Source: a virus | Reading direction: 5' to 3' (one strand) | IMG/VR virus record: IMGVR_UViG_3300008261_000143 | Span: 1-25,395 of that record | DNA length: 25,395 nucleotides | Part shown: positions 886-25,103 of the stretch, in pieces | How positions within the stretch are numbered: the first letter of the stretch is position 1 | Layout: each line of letters starts with the position of its first letter | The notes under the pieces: model-generated | What the model saw: the letters and a program-made list of their open reading frames with translations, nothing else | The model's database searches: none | Told to the model about the DNA's origin: nothing | Translations under genes and position numbers: made by a program

Positions 886-2280
886 ATGCACTTGTTGAAT
901 TACCCGTTTATCAAGTCCCGTCTAAAGACGGAGGGTGGCCGGGAAACGCTTCAACGTCATTTCATGACGTTGTTGCGGCGAGACCCGGAAAAAGTAAAAA
1001 ACATCGTCCAGCAAATGTTGCGAGGACGCCACGAGCTTGGCGTAGACATGTTGGTCTCTGCCCTTGCCGATAATTTTCTCAACAAGCTCGCCCAAACTGC
1101 CGTAGATGACAACTACCACATCGTAGATGTGGTGATGAAGTGCGAGGCTGTCAACTACAGCTACTCCACCAGTAGCATCCGAAATATCCATCAACGCGCA
1201 TCGGGCGGCGAGGATTTCGATACGGTCGATGAGTACCTGCGGAATGAGCGGTACGAACTCGTGACTTGCGACGATTGCGGCGAGCTAGAGTTCCTCGAAG
1301 AGGCGCAGAGTGTTGACGGCAACTCCGTTTGCCACTATTGCATCGAGTCAGAGTACGTTTGGTCGGAATACAGCGACGAATATATCAGCTGCCGCAGAGC
1401 GGTCGAAGCGACCGACCGATACGGTGGAACCGTATGGATCGATGGCGAGTATCCGCCGGATGCGTTCACATACGACGAGGATGAGGAGCGGTACGTTCAC
1501 GACGAGTATGTGCCGTCGATTCTCCGCGACTACCATTCGTCGAAGCACTATCAAGTGCCGATCAGCGACAAATGGACGGCGACCTACGGTCGGCACATGG
1601 GTGTCGAGCTAGAGGTCGAGGTCACCGATGGTGACCGACGCCAAATCGTCAGCCGACTGCACGACGCCATCAATGATGGCGAGTTTGGCAGCAAAGTGTT
1701 TTTCGAGCGTGACGGTTCGTTACGAACCGGCTTCGAGATTATCACCCAGCCTATGTCGCTGCCGATGATTGCGGAAACCTTTGGTTTCCTCAATAACGCC
1801 CAACTAATCAACGGCCTCAAGTCACACAATACCGAGACCTGCGGTCTCCATGTCCATGTCTCACGACATGGCATGACGAATCTGCAAATCTCGAAGATGG
1901 TGTGTTTCGTCAACGACCCCGAGAATCGATGGCTCATCGAAGCTGTCGCCCGACGTTACTCCAATGGATTCTGCCGAATCCATGACAAAAAGCTCGGCAA
2001 TGCCCATTTGAGTGTTGATCGCTATGAAGCGATCAATCTGACTAATCGCAGGACAGTCGAGTTTCGCATCTTCAGGGGTAGCCTGAAGTATGACGCTGTT
2101 GTCGCCGCGACCCAGTTTGTTCATGCCCTTGTCGAGTTTACTCGACCGGCAGAGTCGAGCATCAAGTCGCTCAATGCCGCTGGGTTTCTGAACTTCGTTC
2201 AGAAGAAGATGCCGAAAGAATGTGCGACGTTCCTCCGATATATCGGGGAACGTTCGAAGCAAAACCAAATCGCTGCCTAA
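886..2280 (+). CDS. Amidoligase family (COOH-NH2 ligase) protein with zinc ribbon
   Basis: Predicted ATP-dependent ligase joining a carboxylate to an amine, of the glutamine-synthetase-like amidoligase family (Pfam Amidoligase_2 type). Visible motifs, numbered from ATG 886 (464 aa), are: two CxxC pairs at C128/C131 and C149/C152 forming a likely zinc ribbon; GVELEVE at 239-245 with the metal-binding glutamates; DGSLRTGFEI from 276; CGLHVHVS at 319-326; and VEFRIFRGS at 391-399. These are the expected core motifs, so the enzyme looks intact. The N-terminal 230 residues before the catalytic domain are acidic and Tyr-rich and could bind a substrate or partner. ATG 886 is preferred over ATG 844 because GGAG (874-877) lies eight bases upstream. 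The next gene is a glutamine amidotransferase, a known neighbour of this family. The natural substrate is not evident. Confidence 0.85.
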   Translation: MHLLNYPFIKSRLKTEGGRETLQRHFMTLLRRDPEKVKNIVQQMLRGRHELGVDMLVSALADNFLNKLAQTAVDDNYHIVDVVMKCEAVNYSYSTSSIRNIHQRASGGEDFDTVDEYLRNERYELVTCDDCGELEFLEEAQSVDGNSVCHYCIESEYVWSEYSDEYISCRRAVEATDRYGGTVWIDGEYPPDAFTYDEDEERYVHDEYVPSILRDYHSSKHYQVPISDKWTATYGRHMGVELEVEVTDGDRRQIVSRLHDAINDGEFGSKVFFERDGSLRTGFEIITQPMSLPMIAETFGFLNNAQLINGLKSHNTETCGLHVHVSRHGMTNLQISKMVCFVNDPENRWLIEAVARRYSNGFCRIHDKKLGNAHLSVDRYEAINLTNRRTVEFRIFRGSLKYDAVVAATQFVHALVEFTRPAESSIKSLNAAGFLNFVQKKMPKECATFLRYIGERSKQNQIAA

Positions 2281-2298
2281 TCACGGAGGTAATGGATC

Positions 2299-3225
2299 AT
2301 GTGCTTACTCGTAGAACAGAACGAAGATGTCGTTTTCACCGATGAGTTCCTCATCGACGTTTACAGCAAGAACCGTGACGGTCTCGGCATTATGTATGCC
2401 GAGAATGGCAAGGTAGTTGTCAAGAAAACTATCCCGGCAAGTGCCGCAGAGTTTGTCGAGTTCTATCGGCAGTATGCCGATGGCAAGCGTTGCATCTGGC
2501 ATGCCCGTATGCAAACTCACGGCGACATCGACCTGACTAATTGCCACCCTTACTATGTAACCGACGAGTTGTGGATGGCTCACAACGGTGTGTTGTCGTC
2601 TGGAAACGACAACGACCAGTCAAAGTCTGACACTTGGCATTTCATCCGAAATGTCATTCAGCCAGCCATCGAGGGGAACAAGTACCTTGTTCACGACGAG
2701 AATTGGCAAGCGTTTATCGGCGACCTGATCGGCACATCGAACAAGTTCGGCTTCATGACTGGTGATGGTGACACCATCATCATCAATCGCTCTGCCGGTG
2801 TGACGTTCAACGGCGCGTGGCTTTCCAATACCTACGCTTGGACTCCGTCCAAGTTTGGGTTTCGTGTCCCGGTTCCGAAAACCTACGGCGGCTACTCAAA
2901 GTATACCTACGGTAGCTACTACCACGAGTACGACTGGGACAGCGGCTACTCCGCAAAGGAAAGTAGTGTCGTCAAAGACACTAAGGTCAAGCCGGTATCG
3001 TCGGAGTCTGTTCGGACGATAGTCCGAGCTGCCCACAACTGCTATGTCCGTGACACTCTGGAGCAATGGGTATTGGACGCACCGTGGAAGGCTGCGGCGT
3101 TGCTTGCCTACTGCTACGAGGATGAGAAGGAGGCCGAGGAGCTGGTCGCTGACGACCCGGCTAAAGCCGTCGAATGGATTCGTGACTTGTTTGAACACGA
3201 TGGATTGACACCGTACACGGTGTAA
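2299..3225 (+). CDS. Class II glutamine amidotransferase-like protein
   Basis: N-terminal nucleophile amidotransferase of the GATase-II (GlmS/PurF-like) fold, which frees ammonia from glutamine. The protein starts MCLLVEQ, so Cys2 becomes the N-terminal catalytic cysteine after Met removal. Further signature blocks are IWHARMQTHG (arginine and THG of the glutamine pocket), MAHNGVLS (Asn-Gly oxyanion motif) and KSDTWHF (glutamine-binding Asp). The C-terminal third, from about residue 190, is Tyr/Gly/Ser-rich and then helical, with no synthetase domain I can recognise. This suggests that the acceptor enzyme is a separate protein, most simply the amidoligase just upstream. GGAGGT (2285-2290) lies eight bases before ATG 2299. 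The gene is 18 bases behind the amidoligase, so the two are almost certainly co-transcribed. Confidence 0.85.
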   Translation: MCLLVEQNEDVVFTDEFLIDVYSKNRDGLGIMYAENGKVVVKKTIPASAAEFVEFYRQYADGKRCIWHARMQTHGDIDLTNCHPYYVTDELWMAHNGVLSSGNDNDQSKSDTWHFIRNVIQPAIEGNKYLVHDENWQAFIGDLIGTSNKFGFMTGDGDTIIINRSAGVTFNGAWLSNTYAWTPSKFGFRVPVPKTYGGYSKYTYGSYYHEYDWDSGYSAKESSVVKDTKVKPVSSESVRTIVRAAHNCYVRDTLEQWVLDAPWKAAALLAYCYEDEKEAEELVADDPAKAVEWIRDLFEHDGLTPYTV

Positions 3226-4194: not shown

Positions 4195-4530
4195 ATGGAC
4201 GCGATACTGATTGACCCGCACACCGAAACGGTTTCCGTTGTCGATTACAACGGGGACTTCCAAGAGATTAGCCGCATCATCGGCGATGGTTGCCGGACGT
4301 TCACCGTGGTGAACATCGATGGCGGTAACGATGGAATCTTCGTCGATGACGAAGGACTACTGCGTGAGCAAGCCACGCCGTTCTTCAAGTTCCGTGGATA
4401 CCCTCAGCCTTTGGCTGGTCGTGGGCTAATCCTTGGCGCTGACGAAATGGGTGACGCGGTATCACCGAGCATCACCGTTCAACAAGTTAAGAACGCCGTC
4501 GAGTTCCTTGGCTACGGCATGATGGTGTAG
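4195..4530 (+). CDS. DUF3846-like protein
   Basis: The 111-aa protein begins with an ILIDPHTETVSVVDYNGDFQ strand-rich block, then NGD-type acidic turns (GIFVDDEGLL), a GYPQPLAGRGLILG motif and a final helix. This order of a DPxxxTVxxV opening, FVDDEGLL and PLAGRGLILG matches the phage family I know as DUF3846, whose function is not established. The start is immediately after the previous stop codon, so translation is probably coupled. There is no membrane segment. Confidence 0.65.
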   Translation: MDAILIDPHTETVSVVDYNGDFQEISRIIGDGCRTFTVVNIDGGNDGIFVDDEGLLREQATPFFKFRGYPQPLAGRGLILGADEMGDAVSPSITVQQVKNAVEFLGYGMMV

Positions 4531-17321: not shown

Positions 17322-17499
17322 CGACGACATTCTTGAAGGCCATATGGGATACGAGGGAAGGAGAGACCTTCTAGTCCTCGCAATGGATGCAGATGGCATC
17401 CTGTCTTGCAGCGCAAACACCACCGACAAGGGACGTATTCTGTTCCTTGTCGAGGTGTTTAAGCTGCAGCTTTTAGACGGCGGCTTCGACCAGCCTTAA
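17278..17499 (+). CDS. Hypothetical protein, 73 aa
   Basis: Not recognised. It begins MKSKDQKVVSMFPSDDDILE; the following GRRDLLVLAMDADGILSCSA and GRILFLVEVFKLQLLDGGF look like two strands and a helix. ATG 17278 is chosen because GAGGTG lies seven bases upstream; it overlaps the integrase end by 44 bases. Its stop overlaps that of the convergent giant gene by three bases, leaving no room for a terminator. The last part of the plus-strand operon. Confidence 0.5.
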   Translation: MKSKDQKVVSMFPSDDDILEGHMGYEGRRDLLVLAMDADGILSCSANTTDKGRILFLVEVFKLQLLDGGFDQP

Positions 17500-20400
17500 G
17501 CGTTCGCATCCTTTAGCTTTTCGTACGCGGAGTTGAATCTGTCGTACACCTTTTGGATGTCGAGTTCTATCCGCTCTATGCGCTTCTCTTTCTCGGCCTC
17601 GTCCAATGTTGAATTTTGTACATTCTTTCTTTGCTCATACAGCTTGCGTAGCTGGTTCTGCGCCGACTTCGCAAACGGGATGGCGCGGTAATCGACCTTA
17701 TTCTCATCTACGAAGCCAGCACGTTCAGCGCCGCGCAGCGTCTTGGCCTCCGCCTCAGTACGATAAACCGTGTCGATGCGGTCGTAGAAGTCTCCGGGAT
17801 TCATCGTCCACGAAGTAGTCTTCACGATCTTGTTCACGATCGGAATCTGGCGGGTCTCGATTGCCTTGCCGGTAACGAGACGCTCAGACACGCCATAGGC
17901 TTGCATCAACGTGCGGCCAGCACCACCAAACACTTCGCCAATCAAGTACTCAACCGAGTCGGGATTGATGTCGATCAACCCCGGCTGGAACGACGTACCG
18001 CCAGTCGCTTTGTTCAGCATGTTGGTAAACGCAATCGCTGCGTCAGTCGTACCACGACGAGACAAGGCAGAGTCTGGCAGCTTGACCTTGGCGAACTCCG
18101 GGTTCTCCTTGTAGATCGGGTTGCCAGCAAAGTCCTTGTTCAAGGCAAGGTCAACGACAGGGCGAACGGCGGTCGGCGTAAATGCGCGAGTCAATCCGCT
18201 GGCCGTGTTCTCATCTCCGGGGACGCGAAGCGGCATCATGTCGTTGGCAATCTTGCCGCCAACCTTCGCCGCAAATCCACCAGCACTCTCTGTGCCTGAC
18301 AAAGCTTCCGTCGCCTTAATCGCTGCGTAGGTGATGATGCTGTATCCGTACGGCAACGGCATGGCAAGGATGGGCATTCCGGGAATCTTGATCGGGAGAC
18401 TGTTCTCCTTCACATAATCCGGAAGGTTTTCCCACTCTGTCTTGCCGTTCTCCTCTTCTTCGCTAGATGCAATACCGAAGGCGGTGATCGCAGCAGCTGC
18501 GCCAGCGGCGTAGTACATAATCTTACGCGCTTCAGCAGAACTCATCGTTCGGAAGAACTGAAGGTTACCGTTGATGCTGGCTTGCCAGAACATATAGAGC
18601 GAGTTCATCAACGGGCCAGCCTCACCGCGACGATTGAAGTTAACCGTCACGTTTTTGGCAAGCAGCGCAGCCTTGTCGCGGCTCACGCCAGCCTTGCGAG
18701 CATTGACGTAAGCGACAACGCGAACAGCGTTTTCGGTCATGTCGTTGAAATGCTCGATGGCGTTCTTGATTCCGTTCAGGCCGCGCTTAATGCGCGTCGT
18801 TGCAGCAACGCCCTCAAGGCCGCTCGACTCTCCGAGCAGTTCGATGCTCGACTCAAGATCCTTGTGAAGCTGACGAGAGTCTAGGTTGCGAACGTATCCG
18901 GTCGCGCCACCATCCTCGAAGAACTCCTTGACGAAGTTATCTTCTGTCGTGTTGCCTGATTTGTTATCAAGGTATCGGCTAAGCGCCTTGTGATACTTGA
19001 GGCTGATGTAATCGGATATCGCAGCTTGCGTCACCGTCTTGCCATCGATCCTGCCAGCACCCTTGAGGAGTCCATCTTGCAGATCAGCCTCCGCAACAAG
19101 GTTCATCATGCCGGCCATGAAGTCGCGAGGCACGTTGATCACAGACCAAGCCGGGTTCCAGCGAGTGGTCATGCCGGCGAGGAATGACGATGCGCGGCCA
19201 AGCGTGTCCTGAACCATGTTGACGACCTTGCCCATGTCGGCAGCGCCAAGGTTCAGCATTGCGCGGCGCAGGTTGTCGTCCTTGATATCGATCAGGATGG
19301 TCTGGCCGTTCTCCTTCACCTCGAAGAAGTCCTCGCCCGGGCCACGAGAGGATTGCCGACGCAGCATTACAGCGTCTTTCTTAGCATCCATGTAGCGGTT
19401 GAAGATCGGATTGTCTTTGTCGATGACCTCCCAAAGAGTGTCGTCCTTGAAGGTACGAACAAGGTTCAGGAATCGACGGCCAACCTCAACCTTCCTTGCG
19501 CGGATGGTCTTTTCGTAGGCTTGCTTAATCGCGTTGGTGACAGGCGGGAAAGCCATAGTCTGGCGGCCAAGGGCTGCGAGAGACTCCTTACCGCCAATCG
19601 AGAAGCCACGGCCAACGCGCATCGGACTATTTTGCGGCGAATCAAATTCGTCGATAGCCCAGCCGGTCAGCGGAACATACGATGAGAACTTGTCGTTCCA
19701 AGTTCCGACAACCTCCTCCTCGATAAGGCCAGAGGCAATCATCTTTTGCTGGGTCGCCTTAACAAGATCATCGACGTACTTCATCGCGGCGTTGTACTGG
19801 TCGTACTTACCTTCGTCGCGGAAGCGGTTCATGATCTCGGCGGAGTCCTTGTTGGACATGCCAGATCCTCGGTCAGCGAACCGCTCCTTCATCGTCAGAT
19901 AACGCTCAAGATCCTTGCTCTCAGCAAGGGTCGCCTTCGTCAGGTCGCCGTCGTACTTATCGAGAAGCTTCTGGCGAAGCTCGTCATAACGAGCGGCATT
20001 CTTTCTGGCGATATCCGCGTTACGCTCAGGAGCGTGACGGGCATACGCAAAAAGGTTCAGCATGTTGTAGTCGAGCTTGTTGTCGAAGATGTACTTCATC
20101 ATCGGCTCAAGGTACTGACGCTGAATTCGTCGCTCGTCTTCGGTCACCTGACCGCTGAACCGCTCGATCTGCCCAGCCGCATCCATCTCGTCGGCAATTC
20201 GATCCATGCCGATCTTCTTCGCCATGGCTTTCTGGAACTGCTCAAGGCGGTAGAAAGAATTGACGAAGGTTCTAGTCAGCGTATCGCGTAGGGTTTCGTC
20301 GGCGCCGTTGTAAACGCTGGTTGGCCTTGTCTGCTCAAGCGACGAATTGATGATCGTCTGCATGGAGTCAACGGCGTGGCCGATGCTTCCGAACGCGCCG

Positions 20401-23400
20401 CTATTGACGGCGGATGCAACTGCGGAATTACGTTGATTCATGAATAGCGGGAAGCCCTTGTATACGGCAGCTTCGCGCAGCGCCGGAGGAATATCCAAGA
20501 AGATGAAGTCACGCTTCGTCTCCACGGCCTCCGGATATTGAACCGAGAACTCAAACTCAGCATCCTCGCCGTACTGACGAGTGATTTCATTCAGCTCTTC
20601 TATGGATGCAGCCGAGCCGCCAAACACATACGAGCCGCCGTCATCAACAAATACGTTTACTTCAGCGCCATCCGTGATGGCCTGAACTGCGTATTTTTTG
20701 TTCGGGGTCGAGTGGTTGTAATCCTCAGAGCCTTCAGGCTTGACCTCCATCTCGCCAATGCTGAGCTTTCCGCCAAGCTTTGAGAACAGCTTCTCCGCTC
20801 GCTTGACTAGCTGCTTATCGTAAAAGTCTACGAGGCCATCACCAGAGTCGAGCAGGTCGCCCTTCATCGAGGTGAACCCACGATAGCGGCCTTGCGCTGC
20901 CTCGCCTTCGCCGTTAGCAATACGCTCTGCGACCAGCTTCGGGATGAACTTCGAGAGTTCGCCCGGCTTGACAGACCGCTCTTCGCCAGTAACTTCGCCC
21001 TGCTTATCAATTGGCTTAACGTGGAACGTGCCGTCGGCGTTCTTCTTGTACAGAACTTCGCTGAACCGACGGCGAACGTCGTAGCGGAACTTCTGGTCTG
21101 CGCCAGTAGTCCAAGCAATCCGGTCGTAGCCGTTCTCTGCGGCAAAGCGAACCATGCGCTTCAACGCAAGGTCAGGCCAGCTGGTCTTGAACGGGGCATC
21201 AGGTATTCCAGATGCCTCTCCGTAGCCCTTCTCGCGACCGGCCTGATGCCAGTCGCTCTGCACTTCTTCGATGTGCAGGACGCGATTACCTTCCGTATCG
21301 ATTCGATCCTTGACGCGAACGTGGGCGAGAATGTTCTCGACGCCAGCGAAGTCATGCATCTCGTTCACGAAGTTCGGCATACCCTTACGCGGAGGCAGGG
21401 TCAGCAACAGTTCGCGGTAGTTGTTCCCGCCGGGGAACGTATAGAAGGAATACTTGTCGCCGCCAACTGCATCAACGACATCGATCTGGCGCTGATTGAT
21501 TTGGTCGAGCAGCTGCTCTTTGGTGATAGGGCCGGTCTGCGAGGAAAGCCATTCGGGCAGATCGTAGTATTCGATCTCTTCTGGCTTCACGCCGGGGACA
21601 TTGCGGAGGGTGGCCAGCCATTGCTGACCTGACGCCTTCGCAGTATTCAGCGCATCAACCGCACTCTTAACAGCACTGTAGAAAGTAGGCGCAACGTCTC
21701 GGACGCCGCCTAGTACTGTGTTTCTTTGCCCTTCGCGGTCTCGGCGTACTTCGCCCTCTCCGCCCACTCCGGGTTCGGCTGGTTCTTGTCCAGCCATTCC
21801 TTCGCCGCGAACCCCGCCCCGAACAGGCGGCTCCGCAAGACCGAGGCCGGCACCGGGTGTCCGAACTTCTTCTCGTACTCCTGCAGGAGCTTCGCGTCTT
21901 CCTGTAACAGATTCATTCCGTGCAATCTCCCGTTTGATAAACGCAGAAGCAAGCGGAGCATTTTCCTCAAGCCACTGCGGGTTGACTGTATGTATAGCAA
22001 ATATTTGAGAAATGATCTCGGACTGTATTGCAGCCCAGTCCTTTCCATACGGCCCGTTGAACTGACGGTCGCCGATGTAGAAGAACGGGTATGCAAACTG
22101 CGCTGCAACTCCAGCCTCGTTAGTCGCCCGAGAAATTGCATCGTTCGGATTCATGCCTTCCTCGACCATGCGGGTCGCGTTAGGCACGATAACCGTACGC
22201 ATTTCGTTTGCCAGAAGTCCGAAGATTTCTCGGATCATCGGAGGAGCGGCGGCGGACACAGCCGTCACGCTGCCATTATTGATGGTCAGCGTCTGGTAGG
22301 AGATGCGAGTCTCTCGCGGGGTCTCAAAGCCAAGGCGGCTATGTAGGTTGTGGCCGAGTTCATGTGCGATAACGAACCGCAGCGTCTCTCGGAACCCCGG
22401 CGTTTCGAAGTTAGCCGGATCAAAGAACTCCTCGGCCAGAGACAAAATGTTCTGGTCGCGGAAGAACATGCCACGAGTCTCAGCCTCGCCCGTGTTCTGG
22501 TAGATATCGATGCCTTCAACCAAGCTGCGGGGCAGGCCGAAGTTATCCACAAGGTCAACCAATGCAGCCGTCACCTCTGCCCGACGAGCCTCGTCGGCAA
22601 CCGGGGACAAGGTGTTCGGGCCAACTCGACGAGCCGCTGCTCGGCCATAGCTGACTATGCTTGCCGTAGCAGAACGCAACAATGTTGCAGTATCTGCGAC
22701 AGCCTTGCCAAATGCGGGGGCCTTGCCTTCAAGGAGACTGCGCTGCGGAGCAGCCGGAGGCGGCGTAACAGCGGCCTCAGCCTCAACCGCAGGCTGAGCC
22801 GGGGCTTCAGTACGCGCCGCTTGCTGGGCTTGCTGCGCCGGTCTGGCGGCAGGCTCGCGGCGACCTCGCTCAACCGTGCGAAGGTCTTGCGCTGCTAACG
22901 CATTGAGGGCTGTTTGCAGGGCATCCCGCTCAGCCCCCTCTGGCATGGTTTCGATCATGCGGGAAAGCTGCCCACGGGCCTGTGCGTTCGGCAGGGTAGA
23001 GGCTCGACGGCCTCGGCGCTGCCGCGGGGCAGGCTGAGCTGCAGGCTCAGGCGCAGCCGGGGTCTCTACCGCAGGCGCGGCTGCCTCGGCAGCAGTCTCT
23101 GCGACCGGCTCTGGTTGGCGCATGAAGGACTCTGGAGTCCTCGCGCTTTGAATCATCGCCTCAAGTCGGCTCCTTGGCTGAACTGGGGCCTGCGGCTGCG
23201 GGATGACGTTTGTGGCGCTACGCGCTACAGCCTCAACTCGATTCGTTGCCGGTTGAGTTACGGGTGATCCAGCGCCTAGTCCCATGCTGGGACGGGCAAG
23301 CGTGGTGACCGGCGGCTCAACGCCAGTCAGGTCGCGAGCAGGCGGCGCAATAATCTCGCCGCTGACTGTTCCTCGCTGCGGAGCAGGCTGACGCCCATAT

Positions 23401-25103
23401 CGAGACATCACTCGCTCAAGAGTGGTCTGCGGCGCTTGTCCAAAGAATGGCTGCTGCACAGGCTCGATTCCGGCGGAGATAGCCGATTGCGGGAATCGAG
23501 AAACAATGCCAGCCGTTTCCGGCGTGACCATTGTCTGGAATTCTGGGAACAAGTATTCGATCGCGGCAAGCCGCGCAGTCAACTCGCTAAGCTGCGCCTC
23601 TTCATTGCGAATCAGGTTTCGAAGAGTCTTGACCTGCTTCGTTTGCGAAGGCGCAGTGCGTTCCAGCTGAGAACCACGATCAATGATTCGCTGGTTAAGC
23701 GCGTCAAGTCGGTCTCGAAGCACAGAACGCTCCGCCTCCATCTGAGTACGCTCTTCAGGAGTAATGCGGTCTCGATAAACATTGGCGATGTTGACGACGG
23801 TCGAGTCTCGATACTCACCAGACATCACTTTCTTAACGTCTTCCGTTAAGACCCCAATAACATCACGGGCATTTTGTGTCTGCTTGATTGCCTCGCCAAC
23901 GCTTGCGGCAATTGCCTCAGGCTGAATCTCTGCCGCTCGGCGGAATACCGGGGTTGCAGCGCCTCCAACGTCTTTAATGTCGTAGGCTTGAGTAACTAGA
24001 TCAAACTTAGCAGGGTCGGCGAGGTTCTCGCGCAGGAAAGACCGCTCGATTGTTTGCTCAAGCGACGGCTCCTGCACGGACTCGAGTTCTGCTAGGCGCT
24101 GGGTTGCGAACGCCGGGGGAGCCTCTGGCTGCTGAACTGTGCCGCCAAAAACAGCGCCTGTCTCTGGGCTGCCAAGGAATGTCCTTGTATCCGGCTTTGT
24201 CGTAGTGCCGCCAATGCCCTCTTGTTGGCTCTCCACTCCACCGACTTGAGGTGGGGCTGGAGGCGTCGGCAATGGGCCGCCGCCGATGCGGCGAGCCGCC
24301 GCGATTTCGGCAGGAAGCACTGCGGCTTCGAGCAAGCCGCCGCCAACTGCGGCAGTGGCAACGCCCGTCATCGGGTCTACGCCACTATCGATGTAACGAC
24401 GCTGCAAAAGGTTCTGAGCGTATTGATTACCGCCTTCAGCAGAGCCTTGCAGCAATGTCTGAATAGCAGTCTTCTGAAGCGCAGACTTGATTCCGTTGAC
24501 GGCAGGGCCAATAGGCGCTATCGCAACAGATGCGGCATCAAGTGCCGCACCAAGTCCAGAAGCCTTTGCGGCGTAGTCATCAGCCCCTTCGAAGTCTCCG
24601 GGGTTATTTTCAATGTAGCTGTAGTAGTTATCGCCGTAGCTTTGAACGAACGACGTAACGCCGCCGCCCAAAGCACCGCCGATGATCGCGCCTACGGCAG
24701 AGCCAATAGGGCCTAATGCGGCGCCAGCCGCAGCACCAGCACCAGCGCCAGCGAGAAATGGAGTCGAGCTTCCGAGCATATTCGGAATGCTTTGACGCCA
24801 GAAGTTTGCATCGGTAAGGTCGGTCGCAGTGCCTGTTCCTTGGAATAGGAACGGAGCGGCCTCTGAAATGTTCTGCTCTGCCGCGATGCCGAGCTGATTG
24901 GCAACGTCAGTTGCGCCAAAAGATTCGGCTATTCGCTCTCCAGTTCTCTGGAATCCGGCTTGCGCTATATCAACGCCAGCGCCGAATGAGGATGACAGGC
25001 TAGGCTCCTTGCCTTGTTCTGCCTGCTTCCCAAGTGACGCTCCAATCGAGCGTACTTGTTCAGGATCAACGATATCGCCCCAGAGATCTGTAATGTCAGC
25101 CAT
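17496..25103 (-). CDS. Giant polyvalent virion protein, 2535 aa
   Basis: A multidomain protein of the large polyvalent type, injected with phage DNA and expected to act early in the host. From the N-terminus: helical region 1-110; a Gly/Ala zipper (112-150, AGAGAAAGAALGPIGSAVGA) that may insert in membranes; Pro/Gln/Ala-rich disordered linkers (about 540-830); a zincin-like HELGHN site (914-919, H-E-x-x-H); an Arg/Gly/Glu-rich linker (about 1060-1130); a globular module with EVQSDWHQAGREKGY (about 1281-1295) and AAENGYDRIAWTTGADQ; then, from about 1590, a helical region with MTTRWNPAWSVINVPRDFMA, NDMTENAVRVVAYVNARKAG and MFWQASINGNLQFFRTM (about 2170-2185), the LPD38-like pattern of polyvalent proteins. 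The frame is open throughout. It is preceded by a lytic transglycosylase gene, consistent with an ejection complex. Confidence 0.85.
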   Translation of the reverse strand: MADITDLWGDIVDPEQVRSIGASLGKQAEQGKEPSLSSSFGAGVDIAQAGFQRTGERIAESFGATDVANQLGIAAEQNISEAAPFLFQGTGTATDLTDANFWRQSIPNMLGSSTPFLAGAGAGAAAGAALGPIGSAVGAIIGGALGGGVTSFVQSYGDNYYSYIENNPGDFEGADDYAAKASGLGAALDAASVAIAPIGPAVNGIKSALQKTAIQTLLQGSAEGGNQYAQNLLQRRYIDSGVDPMTGVATAAVGGGLLEAAVLPAEIAAARRIGGGPLPTPPAPPQVGGVESQQEGIGGTTTKPDTRTFLGSPETGAVFGGTVQQPEAPPAFATQRLAELESVQEPSLEQTIERSFLRENLADPAKFDLVTQAYDIKDVGGAATPVFRRAAEIQPEAIAASVGEAIKQTQNARDVIGVLTEDVKKVMSGEYRDSTVVNIANVYRDRITPEERTQMEAERSVLRDRLDALNQRIIDRGSQLERTAPSQTKQVKTLRNLIRNEEAQLSELTARLAAIEYLFPEFQTMVTPETAGIVSRFPQSAISAGIEPVQQPFFGQAPQTTLERVMSRYGRQPAPQRGTVSGEIIAPPARDLTGVEPPVTTLARPSMGLGAGSPVTQPATNRVEAVARSATNVIPQPQAPVQPRSRLEAMIQSARTPESFMRQPEPVAETAAEAAAPAVETPAAPEPAAQPAPRQRRGRRASTLPNAQARGQLSRMIETMPEGAERDALQTALNALAAQDLRTVERGRREPAARPAQQAQQAARTEAPAQPAVEAEAAVTPPPAAPQRSLLEGKAPAFGKAVADTATLLRSATASIVSYGRAAARRVGPNTLSPVADEARRAEVTAALVDLVDNFGLPRSLVEGIDIYQNTGEAETRGMFFRDQNILSLAEEFFDPANFETPGFRETLRFVIAHELGHNLHSRLGFETPRETRISYQTLTINNGSVTAVSAAAPPMIREIFGLLANEMRTVIVPNATRMVEEGMNPNDAISRATNEAGVAAQFAYPFFYIGDRQFNGPYGKDWAAIQSEIISQIFAIHTVNPQWLEENAPLASAFIKREIARNESVTGRREAPAGVREEVRTPGAGLGLAEPPVRGGVRGEGMAGQEPAEPGVGGEGEVRRDREGQRNTVLGGVRDVAPTFYSAVKSAVDALNTAKASGQQWLATLRNVPGVKPEEIEYYDLPEWLSSQTGPITKEQLLDQINQRQIDVVDAVGGDKYSFYTFPGGNNYRELLLTLPPRKGMPNFVNEMHDFAGVENILAHVRVKDRIDTEGNRVLHIEEVQSDWHQAGREKGYGEASGIPDAPFKTSWPDLALKRMVRFAAENGYDRIAWTTGADQKFRYDVRRRFSEVLYKKNADGTFHVKPIDKQGEVTGEERSVKPGELSKFIPKLVAERIANGEGEAAQGRYRGFTSMKGDLLDSGDGLVDFYDKQLVKRAEKLFSKLGGKLSIGEMEVKPEGSEDYNHSTPNKKYAVQAITDGAEVNVFVDDGGSYVFGGSAASIEELNEITRQYGEDAEFEFSVQYPEAVETKRDFIFLDIPPALREAAVYKGFPLFMNQRNSAVASAVNSGAFGSIGHAVDSMQTIINSSLEQTRPTSVYNGADETLRDTLTRTFVNSFYRLEQFQKAMAKKIGMDRIADEMDAAGQIERFSGQVTEDERRIQRQYLEPMMKYIFDNKLDYNMLNLFAYARHAPERNADIARKNAARYDELRQKLLDKYDGDLTKATLAESKDLERYLTMKERFADRGSGMSNKDSAEIMNRFRDEGKYDQYNAAMKYVDDLVKATQQKMIASGLIEEEVVGTWNDKFSSYVPLTGWAIDEFDSPQNSPMRVGRGFSIGGKESLAALGRQTMAFPPVTNAIKQAYEKTIRARKVEVGRRFLNLVRTFKDDTLWEVIDKDNPIFNRYMDAKKDAVMLRRQSSRGPGEDFFEVKENGQTILIDIKDDNLRRAMLNLGAADMGKVVNMVQDTLGRASSFLAGMTTRWNPAWSVINVPRDFMAGMMNLVAEADLQDGLLKGAGRIDGKTVTQAAISDYISLKYHKALSRYLDNKSGNTTEDNFVKEFFEDGGATGYVRNLDSRQLHKDLESSIELLGESSGLEGVAATTRIKRGLNGIKNAIEHFNDMTENAVRVVAYVNARKAGVSRDKAALLAKNVTVNFNRRGEAGPLMNSLYMFWQASINGNLQFFRTMSSAEARKIMYYAAGAAAAITAFGIASSEEEENGKTEWENLPDYVKENSLPIKIPGMPILAMPLPYGYSIITYAAIKATEALSGTESAGGFAAKVGGKIANDMMPLRVPGDENTASGLTRAFTPTAVRPVVDLALNKDFAGNPIYKENPEFAKVKLPDSALSRRGTTDAAIAFTNMLNKATGGTSFQPGLIDINPDSVEYLIGEVFGGAGRTLMQAYGVSERLVTGKAIETRQIPIVNKIVKTTSWTMNPGDFYDRIDTVYRTEAEAKTLRGAERAGFVDENKVDYRAIPFAKSAQNQLRKLYEQRKNVQNSTLDEAEKEKRIERIELDIQKVYDRFNSAYEKLKDANA
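21710..21916 (-). CDS. Possible overprinted 68-aa gene inside the giant gene
   Basis: In the other minus frame, from ATG 21916, the product begins MNLLQEDAKLLQEYEKKFGH and continues PVPASVLRSRLFGAGFAAKE and WLDKNQPNPEWAERAKYAET before a stop. It looks like a real globular or helical protein. In the same bases the giant protein's own frame reads a low-complexity Arg/Gly/Glu linker (for example RGGVRGEGMAGQEPAEPG). GGGAG lies about ten bases upstream of the ATG. Alternatively the frame is a fossil: a small gene absorbed into the large one by frameshift. No comparison was possible, so this is a hypothesis. Confidence 0.4.
   Translation of the reverse strand: MNLLQEDAKLLQEYEKKFGHPVPASVLRSRLFGAGFAAKEWLDKNQPNPEWAERAKYAETAKGKETQY

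Follow-up and report, generated by a model that had tools for sequence, protein, structure and literature searches.

What reaction would an amidoligase and a class II glutamine amidotransferase (GATase) encoded side by side in a phage carry out, and on what target? The two genes form the left end of a 25.4 kb phage fragment (25,395 nt), which is a complete virus record by itself (IMGVR_UViG_3300008261_000143) and is referred to here, over its whole length, as the window. Its other genes include a DnaB helicase, a Sak-type annealing protein, a YqaJ exonuclease, a dUTPase and a tyrosine integrase. A preliminary description had placed two adjacent and intact genes at 886–3225, and the open reading frame starts together with the relatives show that these coordinates are correct, with a gap of 18 bases between the amidoligase stop and the GATase start (Table 1). 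Elsewhere in the window, positions 17496–25103 on the minus strand encode a 2535-aa large polyvalent protein whose sole Pfam match is LPD38, near its C-terminus, and positions 4195–4530 on the plus strand encode a DUF3846 protein common to 13 of the 89 related phage loci.

Table 1. Features of the amidoligase–GATase locus, in window coordinates
Feature	Coordinates	Strand	Basis
Zinc-ribbon amidoligase	886..2280	+	464 aa; open frame from 844; PF12224, PHROG 16683, model pLDDT 92
N-terminal all-helical basic region	889..1251	+	Residues 16–136 (from 844); pLDDT mostly >85
Zinc ribbon, treble-clef type	1267..1341	+	C142, C145, C163, C166 (numbered from 844)
GS/GCS-like carboxylate-amine ligase domain	1567..2280	+	Fold match and invariant residues
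Class II glutamine amidotransferase (GATase)	2299..3225	+	308 aa; GATase_4; putative nucleophile Cys2 after Met removal
Ntn-hydrolase domain of GATase	2299..2871	+	Z 12.0 to EgtC 4zfj, 11.4 to GlmS 3ooj
C-terminal helical domain of GATase	3001..3195	+	pLDDT mostly >90; conserved in viral relatives

Folds and active sites of the two enzymes

Residues of the amidoligase are numbered from the start of its open frame at 844. Translation probably begins at the Met codon at 886, since GGAGA lies ∼8 nt upstream of it and relatives start at the position that corresponds to Met15 of the longer frame; the first Met of the closest relative (L038, 464 aa) aligns with this same position. Pfam Amidoligase_2 (PF12224) matched at 23.6 bits against a cut-off of 22, over 50 residues at the domain end, and PHROG 16683 matched at E 1.2e-28, with PHROG amidoligase families covering residues 249–434. 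Because the only PDB sequence match below E 0.01 was yeast RRN9 (E 0.0029), which aligned to the acidic middle region and was taken as spurious, a fold comparison was needed. In the AlphaFold2 model, the catalytic domain (residues about 245–478) superposed on YbdK (1r8g) with Z 12.8 over 209 residues at 3.7 Å (VIA-align), on the plant glutamate-cysteine ligase (GCL) 2gwc with Z 12.2, and on glutamine synthetases with Z about 11–12. The domain carries the motifs G253-x-E255-x-E257, D290-x-S292, E298, G334-x-H336-x-H338, R371, N398 and E406-x-R408, within which E255, E257, D290, E298, H336, H338, R371, N398, E406 and R408 are near-invariant across 72 non-identical relatives; the catalytic residues are also kept in 79–80 of 80 bacterial and 63–64 of 64 further viral sequences. 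The predicted structure thus combines the GS-like fold with the conserved acidic, His and Arg active-site residues that define Amidoligase_2, and model and alignment together strongly support an intact GS/GCS-like ligase with a conserved active site.

An Ntn enzyme needs a Cys directly after the initiator Met, and the GATase ATG at 2299, preceded by GGAGG, indeed codes for Met-Cys. M1-C2 is present in 97% of relatives, the glutamine-site residues R70, T73, N96, G97 and D111 are near-invariant (75 relatives), and R70, N96, G97 and D111 occur in 68 of 68 bacterial GATases. Pfam GATase_4 matched at 30.3 bits against a cut-off of 23, and a profile match to the GlmS glutaminase 1xff (E 5.7e-8) aligned R70, T73, H74, N96 and G97. 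The AlphaFold2 model (pLDDT 87) contains a low-confidence linker, residues 196–224, ahead of the C-terminal helical domain. With its N-terminal Cys, its modeled Ntn fold and its Arg/Thr/Asn-Gly/Asp glutamine site, the protein has the features that define class II, and its assignment as an intact EgtC/GlmS-like Ntn class II enzyme is strongly supported.

The preliminary description had further counted an added zinc ribbon, a long acidic N-terminal part and small zinc proteins encoded downstream among the features of this module. The ribbon is real and family-wide, as its cysteines are 96–100% conserved in the 72 viral relatives and are found in 80 of 80 bacterial amidoligases, which usually have six CxxC motifs; the one bacterial example tested gave a LIM match. 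The acidic character held only in part: residues 121–240, which include the ribbon, are acidic (pI 4.05), whereas residues 1–120 are basic (pI 9.6) and are modeled with confidence as helices, and this helical region is poorly conserved (column identity 0.09–0.31). The downstream proteins had to be dropped. Four small CxxC proteins are encoded on the same strand as the pair, 2–5 kb away, but they match only 1–5 of the 89 related loci, so that the zinc ribbon belongs to the amidoligase family while the small CxxC proteins lie outside the module. A LysW-like carrier was also considered and set aside, its Pfam match reaching only E 0.72.

A proposed amidation reaction

We consider it reasonably probable that the two proteins make up a glutamine-dependent amidotransferase of two subunits, which would turn a carboxylate into an amide on what is probably a macromolecular target. 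The two gene products would be subunits of one enzyme, in which the GATase would hydrolyse glutamine at Cys2 and hand over ammonia, the amidoligase would use ATP to activate a carboxylate as an acyl phosphate, and the ammonia would convert this acyl phosphate into a carboxamide. For this pair we infer complex formation, ammonia transfer and an amide product. Recruitment of the target, probably a host protein or other macromolecule, would most likely fall to the zinc ribbon together with the variable N-terminal region, and an acceptor other than free glutamate would be expected, because glutamate would yield glutamine and hence a futile cycle. We found no published biochemistry for members of the family examined here and no experimental papers on phage amidoligases.

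One structural result speaks against an amidotransferase: the structure that the GATase matches best is EgtC, which acts as a gamma-glutamyl hydrolase and not as an ammonia donor. The main chemical rival, unlikely though it seems to us, is an attach-and-trim pair like EgtA/EgtC of ergothioneine synthesis, in which the ligase would link an amine to a glutamyl group or some other carboxylate, and a gamma-glutamyl bond would later be cut by the Ntn enzyme, with no transfer of ammonia. It is consistent with EgtC ranking first, at Z 12.0 and tied with GlmS, among the structures that match the GATase, and with the nearest folds of the ligase being the GCS-type YbdK and plant GCL. However, the GATase's sequence-profile matches are GlmS- and PurF-type ammonia donors, the exceptions being a designed helical protein (E 0.09) and 1te5, which is uncharacterised, and no EgtB-/EgtD-like third gene is conserved beside the pair. 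Class II GATases also serve archaeosine and nucleotide pathways, so the pair might synthesize an amidated nucleobase or other small metabolite. This is very improbable, as the pair is not accompanied by any base-synthesis gene, and recruitment through a zinc ribbon would fit a macromolecule better.

Pairing and spread of the two genes

A neighbourhood survey of related phages, which the preliminary description had suggested, shows that the two genes adjoin near-obligatorily: of 80 viral contigs found in IMG/VR with the GATase as the sole query, 79 have the amidoligase upstream on the same strand, mostly no more than tens of bases away, and the lone exception is a contig that starts inside the GATase. 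A further viral search found the pair in 62 of 64 loci, with no room for both genes in the other two, where the contigs end. Among bacterial amidoligase loci, an adjoining GATase was found in 66 of 80 by profile and in 3 more by motif, leaving a few amidoligases with no detectable neighbouring GATase. The next most common neighbour family, which was not formally identified, occurs at 39 of about 90 loci, and no other neighbour is conserved; there is no consistent third gene beside the pair in phages (about 90 loci) and no natural fusion of the two genes among the collected loci. The distance matrices of amidoligase and GATase correlate with r 0.89 over 68 loci, compared with at most 0.27 in 1000 label permutations, a correlation that is partly expected from linkage alone, and dN/dS against relatives is 0.12–0.26, indicating purifying selection. 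The amidoligase and GATase are therefore a cassette moving as one unit. Catalytic residues are kept in close relatives and the two genes are not consistently separated, and profiles, folds, invariant residues and pairing strongly support both the enzyme assignments and a functional link between the two.

The viral-contig relatives are mostly tailed phages, while the bacterial loci are mostly from Clostridia, together with Polynucleobacter and others. A relaxase, resolvase or integrase lies near the pair in 41 of 80 bacterial loci, with a relaxase in 13 of these. Carriers of the gene are few among related genomes (3 of 81 and 11 of 80), so the pair is accessory, and because it is both patchy and common to phages and other mobile DNA, we favour an accessory role in host manipulation or counter-defence. 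Restriction-modification or other named genes made up 4 of 78 sampled proteins around the bacterial loci, too few to judge enrichment, and neither protein matched a defence system in PADLOC. In a bolder version, which we hold to be doubtful, mobile DNA of several kinds, from phages and conjugative-type elements to archaeal viruses, would share the pair as a general system for protein amidation: turning a carboxylate into an amide would silence some conserved protein of the host or its defences, and the ribbon region would serve as a targeting module that can be swapped. As a separate observation, 44 of the 80 bacterial loci contain DUF960 (PF06124), often adjoining the amidoligase (e.g. L128:9645–9974).

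The prevalence of tailed phages among the viral relatives would suit modification of a virion protein, either the capsid or an injected protein. We nevertheless regard this as extremely unlikely, given that phage neighbours are varied, with none conserved beside the pair, and that the pair adjoins relaxase and integrase genes in bacterial genomes, which makes the capsid unlikely as a general target.

Haloarchaeal viruses may carry the cassette as well. In phiCh1 (MK450543, L257:1216–2283) and ChaoS9 (L258:1216–2289), an uncharacterised protein of 355–357 aa is encoded directly upstream of a class II GATase and shows the ladder of motifs GxExE, DxS..E, GxHxH and xExR seen in amidoligases. Of 259 amidoligase frames, 252 contain this ladder, against 0 of 3915 other frames; shuffling the archaeal protein 200,000 times produced it twice. 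Both genes are also present on two further related contigs. The archaeal-virus proteins are without the zinc ribbon, they have no Pfam match, and a profile comparison of the archaeal protein (two sequences) with the window family was not significant (E 0.064), so that the case for homology rests on the motif ladder. We take it as a strong lead that the haloarchaeal-virus pair is the same amidoligase–GATase pair. The newer phiCh1 record notes that the protein combines what the old record listed as ORF41 and ORF42. The haloarchaeal hosts of phiCh1 and ChaoS9 have no murein.

These viruses bear directly on the often-quoted idea that the cell wall is the target. Wall modification that blocks superinfection has been proposed for the related cassettes of phiEco32-like and LUZ24-like phages (PMC5498523, PMC10580990), and murein-modifying amidotransferases exist, MurT-GatD being one (PMC3267633). 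That the pair of the window amidates or cross-links peptidoglycan peptides in this way appears improbable to us: phiCh1 and ChaoS9 carry what is apparently the same pair, which, if homologous as the motifs suggest, weakens peptidoglycan as a general target, and the other cassette genes are missing. An amide-bond-forming pair had been proposed for this locus at the outset, with host wall, host protein and capsid named as possible substrates; the enzymes and their link stand, whereas two of the three substrates have lost ground as general targets. Overall, the pair is a real and widespread module that occurs in phages, in the mobile DNA of bacteria of many kinds and, apparently, in archaeal viruses, and this spread argues that the wall and capsid ideas are not the whole answer.

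Comparison with known systems

At the level of single enzymes, the amidoligase shares its catalytic-domain fold with the YbdK/EgtA/glutamate-cysteine ligase superfamily (GS fold; Z 12–13 to YbdK and plant GCL), but with only 13–16% identity, and it differs in its extra zinc ribbon, its helical N-terminal part and its near-obligate GATase partner. The GATase has the Ntn class II fold and glutamine-site residues of the GlmS glutaminase domain and EgtC, yet it stands as a polypeptide of its own, which carries a helical domain at the C-terminus. MurT-GatD differs on both sides, since it combines a Mur-ligase-like synthetase with a class I GATase, while the window encodes a GS-like ligase and a class II GATase.

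Amidoligase–GATase pairs are already described in phages, namely in Marvin, in MEP401/402 and in LUZ24-like phages. In mycobacteriophage Marvin, gp105 and gp106, annotated as glutamine amidotransferase domain proteins, are an amidoligase that has CxxC motifs in its N-terminal part and, directly downstream, a class II GATase, as in the window, although the pairs share about 23–26% identity (full alignment) and Marvin has a different N-terminal part and is another type of phage. The Methylophilales phages MEP401 and MEP402, whose amidoligase and GATase have been called auxiliary metabolic genes (PMC10580990), have the same gene order as the window, with overlapping genes, and 29–35% identity over aligned stretches, but the N-terminal part is longer and different. 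In the LUZ24/tf/phiEco32-type cassette, too, the genes for an amidoligase and a class II GATase are neighbours; they lie in the early region, within a set of five genes that also includes a COOH-NH2 ligase, an ATP-grasp protein and a gamma-glutamylcyclotransferase (GGCT). The phage tf amidoligase begins directly with its catalytic domain, and the model of the window family misses it.

None of these three additional genes was found in the 25-kb window, and no ATP-grasp or GGCT partner was detected in 15 relatives of 51–65 kb, each with one GATase. The GGCT search was positive in 9 of 14 control genomes, and the ATP-grasp search had no positive control, making its null result the weaker one. Because neither partner was detected in these 15 longer records, two genes appear to suffice. 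Rare relatives have a cyclotransferase or ATP-grasp gene near the pair (L034:161–661, L253:4664–5449), possible links to the five-gene cassette. Strict pairing, a conserved ribbon, the missing cassette genes and the likely archaeal members thereby extend the picture given by the known pairs. Phage amidoligases have been predicted for years, and the strict two-gene form is their smallest version for biochemistry.
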